Assembly (NCBI GenBank): GCA_016744805.1
Contig: JADGDQ010000007.1
Location: forward strand, 1-64,000
Direction of reading: 5' to 3'
DNA: 64,000 nucleotides
DNA from: Sulfurovaceae bacterium
GTDB lineage: Bacteria; Campylobacterota; Campylobacteria; Campylobacterales; Sulfurovaceae
Shown: one piece after another, positions 2,992-21,113 of the stretch
Layout: each line of letters begins with the position of its first letter
Numbering within the stretch: the first letter of the stretch is position 1
Position numbers and translations under genes: made by a program
The notes under the pieces: generated by a model
Database searches by the model: none
Told to the model about the DNA's origin: nothing
Seen by the model: only the letters and a program-made list of their open reading frames with translations

Positions 2992-4003
2992 TTCTTCTTA
3001 AATCCTCTTTTACCATCATAGCACATAACTCTTCTAGGGTACACTTTGGCTCCCATCCTAAAATATCTTTTGCTTTTTGAGGATTTCCTATAAGCAATTC
3101 TACCTCTGCTGGTCTATAGAATTTTGGGTTGACTCGAACTACAGTTTTGCCTGAAGCTTTATCAATAGCTACCTCATCTTCACCCTCTCCACTAAACTCT
3201 ACCTCTATACCTGCACCCTTAAATGCCATAGTTACAAAATCTCGTACAGTCTCTGTACGGTTGGTTGCCAAAACAAAAGTATCAGGCTCTTTGGCTTGAA
3301 GCATAAGATACATACCCTCTACATAATCTTTAGCATATCCCCAATCTCTTTTGGCATCCATATTACCAAGCTCCATACAATCGAGTTTGCCTAGCTTAAT
3401 CTTGGCTACGCTATCTGTAATTTTTCGTGTTACAAACTCTTGACCTCTAAGTGGTGATTCATGGTTAAACAGTATACCACTTGAAGCAAACATATTATAA
3501 GACTCTCTATAGTTAATAACCATCCAATGAGCATAGAGCTTGGCTACGCCATAAGGGCTTCGTGGATAAAAAGGTGTAGACTCTTTTTGTGGAATCTCTT
3601 GAACCTCTCCAAACATCTCAGAAGTACTTGCTTGATAAAATTTAATTGTTGGGTCTATAATACGAATAGCTTCAAGTAGATGCACACACCCAAGCCCTGT
3701 AATATGAGCAGTTGCTAATGGCTGTTCAAAAGAGACACCCACAAAACTTTGTGCTGCTAGATTATAAATCTCTTGAGGCTTAATATCTGATACCATTCTA
3801 ATAGAGTTTGATTGGTCTGTAAGGTCATACTCTACAAGATGAAGATTTGGGTTATCTTCAATTCCAAGCTCCTCAATTCTCCAAAAATTTACAGAAGAAG
3901 TACGACGATAAGTACCATAGACTTCATATCCCTTTTCTAATAAAAGTTCTGCCAAATAGGCTGCATCTTGTCCTGTAATTCCTGTAATTATCGCTCTTTT
4001 CAT
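2969..4003 (-). CDS. gmd: GDP-mannose 4,6-dehydratase
   Basis: This enzyme converts GDP-D-mannose to GDP-4-keto-6-deoxy-D-mannose in the cytoplasm, the first committed step to GDP-rhamnose, GDP-fucose and GDP-perosamine. The protein starts [19 protein letters not shown], a classical Gmd N-terminus with the NADP-binding GxxGxxG pattern. It carries STSEMFGEV and the catalytic YGVAK, and ends with a region rich in [15 protein letters not shown], also diagnostic. I place the start at 4003. A longer frame opens at 4111, but its extra 36 codons do not resemble the family and would overlap the divergent secretion gene. The resulting 344 residues match the usual length. It leads the leftward glycan operon. 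In Caulobacter a comparable gene supplies the O-antigen that anchors the S-layer. Confidence 0.95.
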
Positions 4004-14048: not shown

Positions 14049-14070
14049 GGGTCAGGTGATGCATTATGCG
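14049..14070 (+). repeat. boundary repeat, copy 1
   Basis: The first full copy of a 22-base repeat that begins GGGTCAGGTGATGCATTATG. It stands just upstream of the first MNT promoter (TATAAT at 14098-14103). Related copies follow at 14484-14522, 15154-15171, 15616-15637 and, inverted, 18932-18954. Confidence 0.85.
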
Positions 14071-14477
14071 TTACTATTAACTTTTATACTATTTTACTAT
14101 AATAATTCCAAAAGAGGCTATCTCAATGAGATTCTCCTTGGCAGAGATAAATCATCTTAAAACTACGCTCTCTAAACTCTCTACAGAAGCTAAAATATAT
14201 CTTTTTGGAAGTCGTGTAGATGAAAATAAAAGAGGTGGAGATATTGACCTTTTGATTCTCTCTAGCAAACTTACACGCAAAGATATAAGAGAAATCAGAA
14301 TAGAGTTTTGCAAGGAGTTTGGAGAGCAAAAAATAGATATTCTCCTAGATACACCTACACCTAGCAATCCATTTACACAATTAATTTTTCCTAAGGCTAT
14401 AGAGTTATGATGATAGAAAAACTAAATCAAGATTATAAGCTACTACAAAAACAACTCTTTTGGCTTGATATATCCTA
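14054..14477 (+). repeat. 424-bp direct duplication, copy A
   Basis: This segment matches 15155-15578 at a constant offset of 1101 bases with no gaps. I count about ten substitutions by eye. It carries part of the boundary repeat, a promoter, a complete MNT gene and the first 23 codons of its HEPN partner. Confidence 0.93.
14126..14410 (+). CDS. MNT-domain nucleotidyltransferase (MntA-like antitoxin), copy A
   Basis: A 94-residue minimal nucleotidyltransferase. The active-site pattern is complete: GSR at 28-30, then GGDIDLLIL with the metal-binding Asp39 and Asp41, and a third acidic residue at Asp71 in KIDILLD. Proteins of this family pair with HEPN ribonucleases, and the MntA type silences its HepT toxin by adding AMP residues. 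Here the partner gene, which overlaps by ATGA at 14407, is only a 24-codon remnant, so the antitoxin appears to stand alone. A TATAAT box at 14098-14103 lies upstream. The 15227-15511 copy is almost identical. Whether it still acts on a HEPN protein elsewhere in the genome cannot be told here. Confidence 0.85.
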   Translation: MRFSLAEINHLKTTLSKLSTEAKIYLFGSRVDENKRGGDIDLLILSSKLTRKDIREIRIEFCKEFGEQKIDILLDTPTPSNPFTQLIFPKAIEL

Positions 14478-14481
14478 CTAA
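14407..14481 (+). pseudogene. truncated HEPN (HepT-like) toxin gene, copy A
   Basis: The frame starts ATG at 14407 in ATGA overlap with the MNT gene and encodes 24 residues, starting MMIEKLNQDYKLLQKQLFW and ending LDISY, then stops at TAA 14479-14481. The sequence resembles the first helix of HEPN partners. The rest of the domain, including the RNase RX4-6H motif, is missing. The break lies exactly where the boundary repeat begins. Confidence 0.65.
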
Positions 14482-14483
14482 TA

Positions 14484-14522
14484 GGGTCAGGTGATATCAG
14501 GGGTCAGGTGATGCATTATGCG
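14484..14522 (+). repeat. boundary repeat, copy 2 (partial plus full)
   Basis: A partial copy, GGGTCAGGTGAT at 14484-14495, is followed by a full copy at 14501-14522. They lie between the first HEPN remnant and the end of the frameshifted nuclease-like gene, whose stop codon begins 3 bases further on. Confidence 0.85.
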
Positions 14523-14525
14523 TTT

Positions 14526-15102
14526 TTAATAACTTCTAATCTCTTTATGCTTCTCCACCATAATATCACCCTTTTTTTGCAATACAAAAAACCCCTCATC
14601 ATTGGCTTTTTTTACTAACTCATCTTTAATAGTAAATCCTGCTACAGCTCCATATATTTTAAAGTTTTTATAGTTAGGAAAAAGCTCTCTAAAGTTTGCT
14701 ATTTGCCTATTCTTTAGATTATCTATATTCTTTGTTTCGTATCTTATTTTTTATCTCTACAATCAATACACTATCACCATTGAACATAATAATATCATAC
14801 TCACCTTTAAGGTCATGCCTAGCATATTGATATAAATTTCTCTCTATATTGTCAAATTGTAACCCTGCTATATTCTTATTCTCTTTTAGTATATTAAAAA
14901 AATAATCTTCGGTAATTTCACCTTGGGTTTTACTAATGCCGTCTATATTTATGGATAGATTCTTTATAAATTCTTTTGTCTCTTTAAACTGCTTATCAGT
15001 CTCTTTAAACTTTTCATCAGTCTCTTTAAATCTTTGAGCTGTCTCTTTTTGCAAGCCTTTTATCTCTAATATCGCTTCTGCTAAATCTTCTTTTGTTACC
15101 AT
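14526..15102 (-). pseudogene. frameshifted coiled-coil/PD-(D/E)XK nuclease-like gene (DUF3782-like)
   Basis: From ATG 15102 the frame gives a coiled-coil N-terminus with repeated KETDEKF-type heptads, then a nuclease-like core (GEYDIIMFNGDSVLIVEIKNK, giving the D and ExK pattern). It then hits a stop at 14719-14721. One base later the reading continues in another frame as YETKNIDNLKNRQIANF, then NFKIYGAVAGFTIKDE, to a stop at 14526-14528. Both halves together match the usual architecture of this family at about 190 residues. The total span is one base more than a multiple of three, so a single-base change near the A-run at about 14749-14754 explains it. The ancestral function is unknown; such proteins often sit in mobile or repeat-rich regions. 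Confidence 0.75.
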
Positions 15103-15153
15103 AATTACAACCTTTTTTTAAATTATAGCATGATGATTATATCTTGTTGATAC

Positions 15154-15171
15154 GAGGTAATGCATTATGCG
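15154..15171 (+). repeat. boundary repeat, copy 3 (degenerate)
   Basis: GAGGTAATGCATTATGCG is a 5'-shortened, slightly altered copy. It lies 51 bases beyond the start of the frameshifted nuclease-like gene and opens duplication copy B. Confidence 0.75.
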
Positions 15172-15578
15172 TTACTATTAACTTTTATACTATTTTGCTA
15201 TAATAATCCCAAAAGAGGCTATCTCAATGAGACTCTCCTTGGCAGAAATAAATCATCTTAAGACTACTCTCTCTAAACTCTCTACAGAAGCTAAAATATA
15301 TCTTTTTGGAAGTCGCGTAGATGAAAATAAAAGAGGTGGAGATATTGACCTTTTGATTCTCTCTAGCAAACTTACACGCAAAGATATAAGAGAAATCAGA
15401 ATAGAGTTTTGCAAAGAGTTTGGAGAGCAAAAAATAGATATACTCCTAGATACACCTACACCTAGCAATCCATTTACACAATTAATTTTTCCTAAGGCTA
15501 TAGAGTTATGATGATAGAAAAACTAAATCAAGATTATAAGCTACTACAAAAACAACTCTTTTGGCTTGATATATCCTA
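15155..15578 (+). repeat. 424-bp direct duplication, copy B
   Basis: The second copy of the 14054-14477 segment. The match ends at the same codon of the HEPN remnant, after which the two loci diverge. Copy B continues AATGAATCCATTATTAG, while copy A goes directly into boundary repeat. Confidence 0.93.
15227..15511 (+). CDS. MNT-domain nucleotidyltransferase (MntA-like antitoxin), copy B
   Basis: A 94-residue protein that differs from copy A at residue 3 (Leu for Phe) and is otherwise the same by eye, with GSR, Asp39, Asp41 and Asp71 all kept. Most substitutions between the copies are silent, which suggests the protein has been under selection since the duplication or that the copies have been converted to each other. 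A TATAAT box at 15199-15204 lies upstream. It is followed in ATGA overlap by another short HEPN remnant. Confidence 0.85.
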   Translation: MRLSLAEINHLKTTLSKLSTEAKIYLFGSRVDENKRGGDIDLLILSSKLTRKDIREIRIEFCKEFGEQKIDILLDTPTPSNPFTQLIFPKAIEL

Positions 15579-15603
15579 TAATGAATCCATTATTAGTTAT
15601 TAG
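15508..15603 (+). pseudogene. truncated HEPN (HepT-like) toxin gene, copy B
   Basis: The 31-codon frame repeats the first 24 residues of copy A and continues NESIISY before TAG at 15601-15603. The SYNE step is how intact HepT-like partners continue, so copy B keeps slightly more of the ancestor. The catalytic part of the domain is absent. Confidence 0.6.
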
Positions 15604-15615
15604 GGTCACTTATTA

Positions 15616-15637
15616 GGGTCAGGTGATGCATTATGCG
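15616..15637 (+). repeat. boundary repeat, copy 4
   Basis: A full copy, preceded by a fragment GGGTCAC at 15603-15609. It ends 16 bases before the TATAAT box of the lamin-tail gene. Confidence 0.85.
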
Positions 15638-15650
15638 TTTAATAATTTTA

Positions 15651-15659
15651 TGCTATAAT
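15651..15659 (+). promoter_or_regulatory. extended -10 promoter of the lamin-tail/DUF4214 gene
   Basis: TGCTATAAT at 15651-15659 is an extended -10 element. AGGAG at 15677-15681 and the ATG at 15689 follow. Confidence 0.6.
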
Positions 15660-15688
15660 GAATACTATTATTTTCTAGGAGTATTCTA

Positions 15689-17203
15689 ATGACAAACCAA
15701 GAACTTAAAGCCCTCGTTAGCAAGAGTAAACTTGTGAAAACTTCTCTTGTAATCTTCTTACTACTCTTTTTTCAACCCCACCTCTTGGCTCAATTAATTA
15801 TTACTGGTGTATTAGATGGTCCTCGAACAGGAGGGAAGCCAAAATGTATTGAACTCTATGCACTAGAGGCTATTGAGGAGTTGAGTATCTATGGTGTTGG
15901 ATCGGTAAATAATGGCAAAGGGGTCTCCAAAAAAGAGTTTACCTTTCCTGAAGGCTCTTTGGATAGGGGAGAGTTTATCTATGTGAGCTATGAGGCTGAG
16001 GAGTTTGCTCAGTTTTTTGGTTTTGCTCCTGAGTATACAGGTGGGGTGGCAAGTATTAATGGAGATGATGCTATTGAGCTATTTGAGGGAGATAGTGTGA
16101 TAGATGTTTTTGGAGATATTTATACCGATGGCACAGGAGAGGCGTGGGAGTATAGGGATGGATGGGTCTATAGAAGAGAGCATGTTACTAGCCCCTCTGA
16201 TACCTTTAGTATGGATGAGTGGGAGTTGAGTGGTGTAGGTGCTTTGGATGATGAGAGCAATAATAGCCTCGCTAGTAACCCCTTTCCTCTTAAAAGTTTC
16301 CACGCTACTCTGCTACAGAGTGGTTTTACACTCTCTACAACGGCTCTAGTAGTGAGTGAATCTAGCAATAGCTTTAGTGTGGTGTTGGATATAGAACCTA
16401 AAAGTGATGTAGTGTTGGATATTACTAGTGAAAATAGTGCCAAGATAACGCTCTCTCCCCAGACGCTTACATTTTCGCAGACGACTTGGAATATCCCCCA
16501 AATAGTAACGCTTAACGCTGTAGATGCTAACCAAGTCACTCAAATTACTATAAGTGTAGATGCCACCCATAGTGATGATAGTTTTGATGACCTAAGAGAT
16601 AAAAGTGTGACTGTTACAAGTAGAGAGAGTAGTGTGCAACCTCTCTTTAGACCTTTTGTAACAGAGCCTATAATTGAAGTAGAAAAAGTAGAAAAAGTAG
16701 AAGAAGTAGAAATTGAAGAACAAAAAGAAAGCAAAATAGAAGAGCCAAACCCCATAGAAAATATAGATACAGATAGCCTATTAGCAATGATTACCAAACT
16801 CTATATTACCACATTTGGCAGGGCTCCAGAGATGAGAGGGAGTAACTATTGGCTCTATAAATCTAAGCTCAATTTAGAAGATATAGCAAGAAGTTTTTTT
16901 GACCAAGAGGAGACTCAACAAAAGTATCCTCAGGGCTTTAGTGATTATGACTTTATTGTCTCTATCTATAACCATATATACAATAGAGACCCAGACCAAG
17001 CAGGTGGGGATTATTGGCTCCAAGAGTTAGAGAGTGGCAACATAGAGAGACCACTCCTTATCTTGGCACTTATTAGAGGAGCAAAAGGTGAAGATGCCCT
17101 AATGTTGAAAAAGCAGACTAGAGTGGGTATAGATTTTGCAAAGAGTGGTTCTGTTGATTTGGATTTGGCTAAAAGAGTCTTTGATGAGATAAGGTATAAA
17201 TAA
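15689..17203 (+). CDS. secreted lamin-tail-like protein with C-terminal DUF4214
   Basis: A 504-residue protein. Residues about 14-35 (KTSLVIFLLLFFQPHLLAQ) form a Sec signal peptide. Residues about 36-155 resemble a lamin-tail (LTD) beta-fold: ITGVLDGPRTGGKPKCIELY, then GDDAIELFEGDSVIDVFGD. Residues about 205-305 form a beta-domain with TLTFSQTTWNIPQIVTLNAVD, typical of surface proteins. An acidic Glu/Val/Lys linker follows. DUF4214 occupies about 370-485 (KLYITTFGRAPEMRGSNYW, then YNRDPDQAGGDYW). The last domain matches the N-terminal domain of the S-layer-like protein at 11732. No type I signal is seen, so export is probably through Sec to the periplasm or surface. The function is unknown. 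Confidence 0.75.
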   Translation: MTNQELKALVSKSKLVKTSLVIFLLLFFQPHLLAQLIITGVLDGPRTGGKPKCIELYALEAIEELSIYGVGSVNNGKGVSKKEFTFPEGSLDRGEFIYVSYEAEEFAQFFGFAPEYTGGVASINGDDAIELFEGDSVIDVFGDIYTDGTGEAWEYRDGWVYRREHVTSPSDTFSMDEWELSGVGALDDESNNSLASNPFPLKSFHATLLQSGFTLSTTALVVSESSNSFSVVLDIEPKSDVVLDITSENSAKITLSPQTLTFSQTTWNIPQIVTLNAVDANQVTQITISVDATHSDDSFDDLRDKSVTVTSRESSVQPLFRPFVTEPIIEVEKVEKVEEVEIEEQKESKIEEPNPIENIDTDSLLAMITKLYITTFGRAPEMRGSNYWLYKSKLNLEDIARSFFDQEETQQKYPQGFSDYDFIVSIYNHIYNRDPDQAGGDYWLQELESGNIERPLLILALIRGAKGEDALMLKKQTRVGIDFAKSGSVDLDLAKRVFDEIRYK

Positions 17204-17237
17204 TAGATTATTTTTTCTATAATAAAAAAGGATAAAT

Positions 17238-18113
17238 ATGTGTCAAGTATCAAAATATATCAACCTATTTACTGATTTTGGATTTAAAAAGATATTTGGA
17301 GACCCAAATAGTACCGAGCTACTTCAGAGTCTACTCAATGATATTTTACAATTTAAAGACAGAGACAGAATCAAAAAAATTATATTTAAAAATGGTGAGC
17401 TATTGCCAGAAGCACCCGAAGAGAGAAAAGCCATTATAGACCTGCTCTGTGAAGATGAGAAAGGGAATCAATTTATTGTAGAACTACAAAAAGTATCCCA
17501 AGAACATTTCCAAAGTAGAGCCCTCTACTATACTTCATTTCCTATACAGCAACAAGGGATAAAAGGTGGATGGAATTTTGAACTCACGCCTGTCTATTTT
17601 GTAGGACTCCTTAACTTTGAGATAGAGAGGTTTAAAGATAAAGAAGAGTATCTCCATCATGGTAAAATTGTAGATATATATACGCAAGAGATTATGTATG
17701 ATAAGCTAAATATGGTATACCTTGAAATACCAAAATTAAAAAAAACCAAAAAAGAACTCTCTAATCACTTAGAGTGGTGGATATATACTTTCCAAAATCT
17801 CCATACAATGCATACTATACCCATAGAGCTTCAAGATGATGTGATTAAAAGTGCATTTGAAAAAGCCGAATTTGCATCCATGCCAAAGAGTCAACAAGAG
17901 AATTACCATAAGAACTTAAAAGTCTATAGAGACTTAGTAAATAGTTTTGATTTTGCTATAAAAAGTGGACATAAAGAGGGCAAAAAAGCAGGAATGAAAG
18001 AGGGCAAAAAAGAGAAAAGCTTAGAAATAGCCAAAAACCTATTAGCCACTGATATGGAGTTGGATCTTATATCTAAAATTACAGGTTTAGATATAGAGGA
18101 TATTAAAGAATAG
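17238..18113 (+). CDS. Rpn-family PD-(D/E)XK recombination-promoting nuclease/putative transposase
   Basis: A 291-residue protein opening with YINLFTDFGFKKIFGDPN, the diagnostic N-terminus of the Rpn/PDDEXK_2 family. The nuclease core is visible as Asp68 (KAIIDLL) and Glu82-x-Gln84 (IVELQ). The C-terminal tail has Lys/Gly-rich repeats (HKEGKKAGMKEGKKEK) and a helix (ATDMELDLISKITGLDIEDIKE), also usual in this family. E. coli RpnA-type members cut DNA and raise RecA-independent recombination; whether this copy is active is unknown. It lies 34 bases after the lamin-tail gene on the same strand and converges on the tyrosine transposase gene with a 9-base gap. Confidence 0.88.
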   Translation: MCQVSKYINLFTDFGFKKIFGDPNSTELLQSLLNDILQFKDRDRIKKIIFKNGELLPEAPEERKAIIDLLCEDEKGNQFIVELQKVSQEHFQSRALYYTSFPIQQQGIKGGWNFELTPVYFVGLLNFEIERFKDKEEYLHHGKIVDIYTQEIMYDKLNMVYLEIPKLKKTKKELSNHLEWWIYTFQNLHTMHTIPIELQDDVIKSAFEKAEFASMPKSQQENYHKNLKVYRDLVNSFDFAIKSGHKEGKKAGMKEGKKEKSLEIAKNLLATDMELDLISKITGLDIEDIKE

Positions 18114-18122
18114 AGAATAACT

Positions 18123-18899
18123 TTAAGCCCCATTTATATCTATTTTTTTAATAACTCTCTGCACCGTAGATTGTGCTACTTTCAAAGCTTTGGCTATGGC
18201 GTGTTGTGAGTATCCTAGTTTGTAGGCTTTGCATATAATGCTATTTCTCTCTTTTTTATCTTCAAAACTCTTAAGCATCTTTTGTAGTTTTGCTATATCT
18301 AGCTCTTTTGTATGTGGTACACCCATAAGTGAAGAGGCTCGTTTGAGGTCTTGGAGTTGCTCTTGATCTACTGTTGCATATAAAAATTTTCGTATAGCAT
18401 CTTTGTCCTCTTTGTAGTTTTGTACTATATAAGAGTTTTTAAGCCATTTGGCTAAAGAGTCATAATTGAGAAACTGATGCCCTGAGCTATAAGGGTACTC
18501 TTCTATTGTATGAGCTAATTTGGCTTTGATGGGATTTTGTTCTATATAGATTATAAGTGTATAGAGGTAGGCTTCATCTGTAACAAACCACGAAGCAAAA
18601 CGCCCTTGCCATAGATGCCCTACTCTTTTATATTTTTTGTTAAAGTAAATAGCGTAATTGGCATTGATTTGACGCATAAACTTAGAGAGATTATTTTGTT
18701 GTGTCTCTATAAGTAGATGGTAGTGGTTGGGCATAAGAGCATAACTGTGCATAATAATAGTAAACTCTTTTGTGTATCTCTCTAATAACTCTTCAAAATA
18801 CTCATAATCATCTCTATCCAAAAATATAACTCTTTTTTCTACTCCTCTATTGATAATATGATAATATCCTGCCATATCTACTCGTGGTCTTCTTGCCAT
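18123..18899 (-). CDS. REP-associated tyrosine transposase (RAYT, Y1/HUH family)
   Basis: A 258-residue HUH-type single-strand transposase. The start RPRVDMAGYYHIINRGV is typical of RAYTs. The HUH motif is His59-Tyr60-His61 in LMPNHYHLLIE, followed by GHLWQGRFASWFV. The catalytic Tyr is probably Tyr118 in IYIEQNPIKAKLA. A C-terminal helix-turn-helix (YSQHAIAKALKVAQSTVQ, about 230-247) may recognise DNA. RAYTs are usually single-copy, domesticated genes that spread short palindromic REP sequences. The gene appears intact. An inverted copy of the boundary repeat lies 32 bases beyond its start (18932-18954), as expected for its own flanking element. Confidence 0.9.
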   Translation of the reverse strand: MARRPRVDMAGYYHIINRGVEKRVIFLDRDDYEYFEELLERYTKEFTIIMHSYALMPNHYHLLIETQQNNLSKFMRQINANYAIYFNKKYKRVGHLWQGRFASWFVTDEAYLYTLIIYIEQNPIKAKLAHTIEEYPYSSGHQFLNYDSLAKWLKNSYIVQNYKEDKDAIRKFLYATVDQEQLQDLKRASSLMGVPHTKELDIAKLQKMLKSFEDKKERNSIICKAYKLGYSQHAIAKALKVAQSTVQRVIKKIDINGA

Positions 18900-18931
18900 A
18901 ATGTATCCTTTTTAAGTTATTATAGCATTTT

Positions 18932-18954
18932 TGCATAAAGCATCACCTGACCCC
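18932..18954 (-). repeat. boundary repeat, inverted copy 5
   Basis: On the minus strand this reads GGGGTCAGGTGATGCTTTAT and onward, close to copies 1-4 but in opposite orientation. It marks the right end of the accessory patch, between the transposase start and the formate dehydrogenase-like gene. Confidence 0.8.
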
Positions 18955-19010
18955 ATAAAGCTCTAAGGCAAAATAGGTTAAAACTACAGATATAAATCAA
19001 GGCTAATAGA

Positions 19011-21113
19011 ATGAAAAATAATAATATTCAAGAGATAGAGAGTGTCTGTACCTATTGTGGGGTGGGATGTGATATTACAGGTGTTGTAGAAAACAATAAA
19101 ATTACCAAAATATATGCTCAAAAAGATGGGCTAGTCTCGCAAGGGAAGCTCTGTATTAAGGGTAAATATGGCTATGACTTTGTGGATGCTTCTGACCGTA
19201 TTAGAGAACCACGCATCAAAAAAAGCTTTTTAGAGAAAAACCCTCTTATCCTCCAAGCAGTACAAGAGAGACTCGTAGAGTTTGACAGCAACTATATGAG
19301 CTGTGACTTGGATACTGCTACTACTATTGCTACAATGAAGCTCTCAGAGGTCAAAGAGCAGTATGGAAGAGAGAGTTTTTGTGCTATTGGTGGAGCAAGA
19401 ACAAGTTGCGAGAGTGCCTACTCATTTCAAAAGTTTTGTAGAGAGACTATGGAGTCGCCTCATGTAGATAACTGTGCTAGAGTCTGCCACTCTCCATCAC
19501 TCAAAGGTATGCGTGCAACCATTGGTGAGGGTGCTGCTACCAACCCCTATAATGATATATATGAGACAGAGTATATGGTTGTTATTGGCTCTAATACTAT
19601 GGAGGCTCACCCTATTATCGCCAACCGTATGGTAGATATGGCAAAAAAGCTAAATAACCTCGCAGTGATTGATGTGCGAGAGACCAAGCTTGCTAAATAT
19701 GCAAAACAAAACTGTATTATCCCCTATGAAGCCAACCTTTTGGTACTTAATATGATGGCTTTTGTGATTATTGATGAGGAGCTGTATGATAAGAGCTTTA
19801 TAGAGACACGCACCAAAGAGTTTGATGCTTTCAAAGAGAAAATTCTTAATGACCCTTATGCTAATCCAAACTTTTTTAAAGAGATAGAGGGGTATGAGTA
19901 TCTAGCAAAGATGATACCAAATATTGCAAGAGAGTATGCGGTCAAAAAGTCTATGCTCTTTTGGGGTCTAGGAATTACCGAACATCTTGATGGTTCGTAT
20001 GCAGTTATGGCGATGACACATCTTGCTATGATGACAGGAAATGTAGGAAAAACTGGTGCAGGGCTTATGCCTCTTAGAGGGCAAAATAATGTCCAAGGGG
20101 CTTGTGATATGGGTTGCCTCCCCTACTACCTCCCAGACTATCAAGAACCCAAAGAGATAGGTCTAATGACTCCTCAACTTATAGATGCTATGCTAGAGGG
20201 AAACATCAAAGCATTACTCAATATGGGTGAAGATATTATGCATATTCACCCTAATATCAACAAAATAGAAAAAGCCTTAGAGAAGCTAGAGTTTATTATG
20301 GTGCAAGAGCTTTTTATGACAGATATAGCCCAAAAAGCTGATATTGTGATTGGAGTGAAGTCTGCGTATGAGAAGACGGGTGTTTATGTAAATGCCATGC
20401 GTAGACTCCACCTTTCGCAACCTCTTGTCCAGAGTGATTTGCCTGATGATTGGGAAGTACTCACGATGATGGATAGTAAACTAGGCGGAAACTTTAATTT
20501 CACAACAAGCCAAGAGGTGTGGGATGAGGTACGCAAAGTAGCCCCAAATAGATTTAGTGGAGCAGACTATTATCGCTTAGAGAGACACCGCAAAAGAGGT
20601 ATGCAGTGGCCAATCTATCACGAAGATACTCCTGTACTGCATCTTTTGGATTTTAGAACAGAAGATGGCTTAGGGAACTATGTCTACCATCAGTACCAAC
20701 CAAGAGGTATGGTTCAGGAGATATTAGATAAAGCATTCTATAATAATAGCCTAGAGGGATACTATCTCACCACAGGACGCACTTTAGCCCACTATAATAA
20801 CTCTGCTCAAACTAAAAGAAGTAAAAAATTATTAAGTAAATATGATGAAGATGTTCTATTAGCCCCTATAGAAGATGAGGGAAAACTAGGTGACTGGGTA
20901 GTACTCAAAACCCAATATGGAGAGACAAATCCTCTACCTGTAAAGTATACAGACAAAGTCAAACCCAAAACACTCTTTAGTACTTTTCACCATAGTAGTT
21001 CACGCATCAATGCGATATTTGGAGATGAGTGTGATGAGTTGATTATGACAGCTCGTTTTAAATCATTAAAAGTAACTGTCGTTCTAGCAGATACTCAGAT
21101 TGGGTGTGGGTAA
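19011..21113 (+). CDS. fdhA: formate dehydrogenase-like molybdopterin oxidoreductase, catalytic subunit
   Basis: A 700-residue cytoplasmic protein without Tat signal. An N-terminal 4Fe-4S site uses Cys13, Cys16, Cys20 and Cys48 (VCTYCGVGC and KLCIKGKYG). NCARVCHSPSL follows, placing Cys159-His160 where E. coli FdhF has Sec140-His141, so the metal ligand is cysteine rather than selenocysteine. Other matches are GANNVQGACDMG-like RGQNNVQGACDMGCLPYYL and a C-terminal cofactor-binding domain ending DTQIGCG. It should oxidise formate or reduce CO2 at a bis-MGD molybdenum or tungsten centre. No electron-transfer subunit or chaperone gene lies next to it, so the partner is unknown. The gene stands between the accessory patch and tsf, and its end is 7 bases from the convergent tsf stop. 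Confidence 0.85.
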   Translation: MKNNNIQEIESVCTYCGVGCDITGVVENNKITKIYAQKDGLVSQGKLCIKGKYGYDFVDASDRIREPRIKKSFLEKNPLILQAVQERLVEFDSNYMSCDLDTATTIATMKLSEVKEQYGRESFCAIGGARTSCESAYSFQKFCRETMESPHVDNCARVCHSPSLKGMRATIGEGAATNPYNDIYETEYMVVIGSNTMEAHPIIANRMVDMAKKLNNLAVIDVRETKLAKYAKQNCIIPYEANLLVLNMMAFVIIDEELYDKSFIETRTKEFDAFKEKILNDPYANPNFFKEIEGYEYLAKMIPNIAREYAVKKSMLFWGLGITEHLDGSYAVMAMTHLAMMTGNVGKTGAGLMPLRGQNNVQGACDMGCLPYYLPDYQEPKEIGLMTPQLIDAMLEGNIKALLNMGEDIMHIHPNINKIEKALEKLEFIMVQELFMTDIAQKADIVIGVKSAYEKTGVYVNAMRRLHLSQPLVQSDLPDDWEVLTMMDSKLGGNFNFTTSQEVWDEVRKVAPNRFSGADYYRLERHRKRGMQWPIYHEDTPVLHLLDFRTEDGLGNYVYHQYQPRGMVQEILDKAFYNNSLEGYYLTTGRTLAHYNNSAQTKRSKKLLSKYDEDVLLAPIEDEGKLGDWVVLKTQYGETNPLPVKYTDKVKPKTLFSTFHHSSSRINAIFGDECDELIMTARFKSLKVTVVLADTQIGCG

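Follow-up and report, generated by a model that had tools for sequence, protein, structure and literature searches.

HepT/MntA systems, which are type VII toxin-antitoxin (TA) modules, are the closest described counterparts of the genes analysed here. Their MNT antitoxin is an adenylyltransferase whose motif is given as GSX10DXD in the available text of PMC7641770, and their HEPN toxin carries an RX4HXY motif. Antitoxins without a toxin are abundant according to the accessible parts of PMC7192599, which count 2253 of them in genomes of the Klebsiella pneumoniae complex, and their role as anti-addiction modules was proposed there and in the corresponding part of PMC7354431. A literature search on solitary or orphan antitoxins of the MNT and HEPN type returned only work on TA systems in general. 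The edges of the locus have their counterpart in TIRtrons, whose TIR motif is GGGGWSAS and whose ends are single, dimeric or clustered (PMC3733652, in the portion available), and in the TIRYT transposases, most of whose described members are placed in TnpA-REP subclass 2.1, where the C-terminus carries an HTH (PMC6006769, likewise). A search of the literature on REP-associated tyrosine transposases in Epsilonproteobacteria found nothing.

The window is a stretch of 64,000 nucleotides of contig JADGDQ010000007.1 (64.7 kb) from the draft assembly GCA_016744805.1 of a Sulfurovaceae bacterium (94 contigs, 2.33 Mb, 92.7% complete). Its segments 14054–14477 and 15155–15578 form an ungapped match of 424 nt with exactly 10 differences (8 transitions), in agreement with the roughly ten estimated in the original prediction. 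Each segment carries on the forward strand an intact MNT nucleotidyltransferase gene coding 94 residues (copy 1, 14126–14410; copy 2, 15227–15511), and both products match Pfam NTP_transf_2 above its cut-off (PF01909, 31.7 bits for copy 1, cut-off 21). The active site announced for both copies is present (GS-x9-DxD with Asp39, Asp41 and Asp71), and the proteins differ, as had been stated, at a single residue; this is residue 3, Phe in copy 1 and Leu in copy 2. Relatives mostly begin with MRL, so that Leu3 of copy 2 is the ancestral-looking residue. Upstream of the gene there are three of the ten differences, the MNT frame has seven and the 70-nt HEPN stub none. The count of silent and replacement changes that the original prediction had proposed gave six silent changes and one replacement; random mutation is expected to yield a silent fraction of 0.215 to 0.283 (kappa 1 to 6), and the probability of at least six silent changes in seven is 0.0006–0.003 over this kappa range, for a small number of coding changes (n = 7). 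This excess argues, at the sequence level, against free decay, and the MNT indeed looks both intact and constrained. The unchanged stub is uninformative on the neutral rate because zero changes in 70 nt have a probability of 0.13 at the rate of the remaining sequence. A whole-genome search with the first MNT unit found these two copies as its only full-length matches, which excludes chance similarity. A scan of a collection of genome contigs with the MNT returned only two distant loci (46–48% identity).

The window MNT shares with HepT/MntA the GS..DxD motif followed by a third Asp, and a partner HEPN frame that starts at the MNT stop. It differs in the spacing GSx9DxD in place of the published GSX10DXD and in its score against the NCBIfam MntA equivalog model (20.9 bits, cut-off 60). 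Matches in PADLOC were weak only, and the sole solved structure matched by sequence was the distant HI0073 (PDB 1no5, E 0.0044). To judge by family and motif, the MNT has probably remained an adenylyltransferase. Close relatives of 49–63% identity were collected by family and class searches; 28 loci entered the comparison and 27 passed the motif filter GSRx8DxD, L016 having failed and been dropped. All 29 MNTs that cleared this filter have the GSx9DxD spacing, which marks it as a subfamily trait; the intact motif in 29/29 is conditional on the filter itself.

A further departure from HepT/MntA is that the window toxin gene is cut to stubs of 24 and 31 codons, where RX4HXY is missing. Stub 1 (14407–14481, forward) overlaps the MNT stop by 4 nt and shows 69% identity over 26 residues to the start of a full HEPN; stub 2 (15508–15603, forward) has about 26–27 HEPN-like codons, with 74% identity over 27 residues to an intact HEPN. 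In 22 of the 27 close relatives a HEPN of 142–149 residues begins at the MNT stop, and by this comparison the window stubs are true truncations. The predicted lengths of 24 and 31 codons were thus read correctly; of the claim that both partners are cut at the same codon, the truncation stands and the identical codon does not, since HEPN homology ends at codon 24 in copy 1 (..LDISY) and at about codon 26–27 in copy 2 (..LDISYNES). The last few residues of stub 2 derive from the flanking terminal-repeat array, a short iterated flank of the form TTATTA-GGGTCA-TTATTA-GGGTCAGG with small variations. The search for an intact HepT-like gene elsewhere in the genome, also proposed originally, came out negative: in the 92.7% complete assembly a full-HEPN query matched the two stubs only. 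A fused or relocated HEPN elsewhere in the genome was ruled out by this same result. A PDB search with a related HEPN gave matches at chance level only.

That a toxin is lost while an intact, duplicated antitoxin stays had been regarded as unusual, a view that the relatives weaken. Full-length HEPN with RX4HXY, as in HepT/MntA, is found in 21/27 loci, while the motif of L010 reads K....Y, with R and H lost. In five others HEPN is shortened or missing and the MNT motif is intact: about 10 residues are left before another gene in L089, an internal deletion is found in L093, no HEPN was found in L096, a 117-residue HEPN is cut before the next gene in L101, and about 29 residues precede the end of another gene in L146, a cut close to that of the window. 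HEPN is therefore lost, truncated or active-site-altered with MNT kept in 6/27 loci, and toxin loss with retained MNT is recurrent rather than unique; these loci were found via MNT, so that loci with HEPN kept and MNT lost fall outside what the comparison could detect. Orphan antitoxins are abundant elsewhere too, as in the Klebsiella genomes (PMC7192599, available part), which share with the window an antitoxin without toxin; the window unit differs in being duplicated, bounded by transposon ends and of an enzyme-type (MNT) antitoxin.

Both MNT units are headed by a terminal repeat. The exact TIR-like sequence GGGTCAGGTGATGCATTATGCG is found on the forward strand at 14049–14070, ahead of unit 1, at 14501–14522, adjoining the 3′ end of a reverse gene, and at 15616–15637; a degraded copy at 15150–15171 (repeat family D4; 46 nt of it match the copy at 14049 at 87%) heads unit 2, and a partial remnant, GGGTCAGGTGAT, lies at the right edge of unit 1 (14484–14495). 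The block is laid out head-to-tail as repeat-MNT-stub, repeat-reverse gene, repeat-MNT-stub, repeat-DUF4214. GGGTCAGGTGATGCATTATGCG with up to 3 mismatches has 10 sites in the genome and its reversed-pattern control none. The reverse gene (14526–15102) consists of two open frames offset by a frameshift near 14720–14750, and has weak nuclease-like matches below cut-off (NERD, DUF3782 and PDDEXK); like the RAYT genes, it has its stop beside a terminal repeat in inverted orientation. The repeats of both MNT units (14055–14075 and 15156–15176) score as terminator-like hairpins. Four terminator-like sites were found in the region against 0.5 ± 0.7 expected, and promoter-like sites were not above chance (11 against 8.2 ± 2.9). 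None of the 27 relatives has a GGGTCAGG-type end in the 120 nt upstream of its MNT gene; GGGTCAGG is present somewhere in two of these loci, in neither case within those 120 nt. The repeat head was thus probably acquired. A terminal motif native to the MNT operon was ruled out, being absent from the 120 nt upstream in 27/27 (one chance GGTGATGC, in L094).

The window contains the likely source of these ends about 3 kb downstream of the MNT array. A reverse-strand gene (18123–18899, 258 residues) codes a Y1/HUH tyrosine transposase of RAYT/TIRYT type (PF01797, 59.1 bits; NCBIfam REP_Tyr_transpos, 71.8 bits, cut-off 80) whose C-terminal region is HTH-like, HTH models matching near residues 217–257 below their cut-offs. 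The repeat edges match the end of this transposase: a reverse-strand copy of GGGTCAGGTGATGCATTATGCG with 2 mismatches lies 5′ of its start (18932–18953), and the end GGGGTCAG, 54 nt upstream of the start, fits GGGGWSAS. Two other RAYT-type transposases of the genome have GGGTCAGG at -72 and -60 (C31, C58). In a comparison of 34 Y1 loci (29 taken from a larger table of matches, and five of the own genome), 15 of the 20 RAYT-type ORFs have the 8-mer GGGTCAGG in the 150 nt preceding them, and the 15 other Y1 loci have it nowhere. Of the 18 RAYT ORFs in this main set that exceed 200 residues, 8 have an inverted copy just 3′ of the stop, as do 3 of 4 additional loci. Judged by these correspondences, the repeat edges of the MNT units are terminal repeats of this tyrosine (Y1/HUH) transposase family, and the idea of a cassette cargo gains strength from unit edges that are transposon terminal repeats. 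The likeness to TIRYT/TIRtron, as far as its described parts go, comprises a Y1 transposase with an HTH-like C-terminus, an end fitting GGGGWSAS upstream, and single, paired and clustered ends. The difference is that several direct-orientation ends here head non-transposase genes and that the transposase copy has no right-hand end, the inverted end on its other side being absent in the window and in the sister genome G005. A literature search for the letters GGGTCAGG returned only unrelated papers among the matches listed.

These ends are dispersed beyond the window. The 14-mer GGGTCAGGTGATGC is present in 12 of 100 family genomes, own included, with a reversed control of zero in the genomes listed, and G067 has two pairs of inverted ends spaced about 113–126 bp, as in a miniature element. 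At 8 of 50 distinct ends the sequence flanking the terminal repeat on its outer side is iterated, and a GGGTCA remnant separates the copies (window 15588–15637 and L105, L107, L112, L115, L121, L124 and L127), possibly from failed or repeated insertion. Two related KilA-N domain genes flank a terminal repeat in L123 (G008).

The sister locus in G005, of the same genus, lacks the block. It is homologous to window 15616–17224 (82%) and 18145–20000 (90%), without block 14049–15615 and without the PDDEXK_2 gene region (17225–18144), and the left break of homology is window 15616, the first base of a terminal repeat. Collinear in both are the DUF4214 gene (15689–17203, forward; preceded in G005 by one terminal repeat only), the transposase and the gene that follows (19011–21113, formate-dehydrogenase-like by eye). 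The N-terminal part of the DUF4214 protein has matches in 4 of 175 family genomes, own included, the only close one being in G005. The PDDEXK_2 family gene of about 0.9 kb (17238–18113, forward; PF12784, 193.7 bits) is absent from the G005 locus. With only one close sister locus, gain here and loss in G005 are not distinguishable.

The reading that we consider most likely, with moderate confidence, is that a single truncated MNT unit was duplicated as a repeat-headed block and still encodes a constrained enzyme. An MNT-HEPN (type VII-like) operon would have lost nearly the whole HEPN toxin gene, toxin-first loss being expected because antitoxin-first loss would be harmful. The remaining unit (terminal repeat, MNT and stub) would then have been duplicated within the terminal-repeat cluster of a RAYT/TIRYT-type transposase. 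The single truncation presumably preceded duplication, copy 1 having later undergone a small indel at its right end. Both MNT copies would still encode a working adenylyltransferase that purifying selection maintains. Copying could have been carried out by the transposase or by recombination between terminal repeats. A normal two-ended element is expected to have an inverted right-hand repeat. Against transposition, neither MNT unit has one, repeats in direct orientation only being found (14049, 14501 and 15616), and the transposase copy lacks one too; the MNT unit hence does not have the inverted repeats at both ends of a two-ended non-autonomous element. In favour of transposition are repeats dispersed elsewhere in the genome whose left edges are sharp and coincide with related ends: a 122-bp repeat of 97% identity on C32 and C66 (L041/L042) that starts sharply at GAGGTCTGGTGATGCATTATGC, and about 130 bp behind GGGACTGGTGATGCATTATGCG duplicated on C50 (L039; 88% identity, complement of 1033–1161 and 3269–3390). 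The second C50 copy leads into an ORF that is RHS-like by eye.

A possible reading, held tentatively, is that the unit is a selected anti-addiction cargo whose orphan MNT would AMPylate and silence those HEPN toxins of its subfamily that incoming elements carry, the duplication raising dosage. It draws on the intact active site, the excess of silent changes, the proposals of anti-addiction modules cited above and the occurrence of the cognate subfamily elsewhere in the family and class, but the cognate HEPN was found in none of 72,556 plasmid or 50,697 phage records, viral contigs held no related MNT, and the MNT activity is itself a prediction. Somewhat doubtful, if possible, is that the locus is a passive remnant of toxin-first decay in which chance recombination between terminal repeats duplicated the unit so recently that the MNT is undecayed. 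The small divergence of the copies (10/424 sites), the little-decayed stub (74% identity to intact HEPN) and the frameshift in the adjoining reverse gene agree with it, while the six silent changes out of seven do not. The MNT may have been retained either for protection against HEPN toxins or by residual constraint. It is an unlikely, more speculative extension that RAYT/TIRYT-type transposases, starting from a single terminal repeat and stopping at variable right ends, can copy adjacent host DNA into head-to-tail arrays of cassettes, of which that in the window would carry a disarmed TA module as portable anti-HEPN immunity.

Action of the orphan MNT in trans on a HEPN of contig C92, adding antitoxin dose, seems quite improbable. 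An intact MNT-HEPN pair is present there (L008, RX4HXY read by eye) and its MNT is 45% identical to that of the window, but the HEPNs are of different subfamilies, the full HEPN of the window's subfamily having no match to that of C92 at E up to 10. The neighbour of the C92 pair is a 494-residue protein that matches the RAMP superfamily weakly (19.9 bits, cut-off 22.1). Misassembly of one copy into two, conceivable in a draft of 94 contigs, is very improbable against 10 site differences, unlike right ends and unique sequence between the copies on one 64.7-kb contig.

In place of a cut shared to the codon, the favoured reading offers a testable anatomy, in which terminal repeats of a tyrosine-transposase family frame a disarmed TA gene. 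Since the 27-locus comparison places toxin loss with MNT kept in several loci, the decay order of an abundant TA type becomes directly open to study. Should AMPylation of HEPN by the MNT persist, the unit would provide a simple case, found in nature, of an antitoxin that spreads while its toxin does not.
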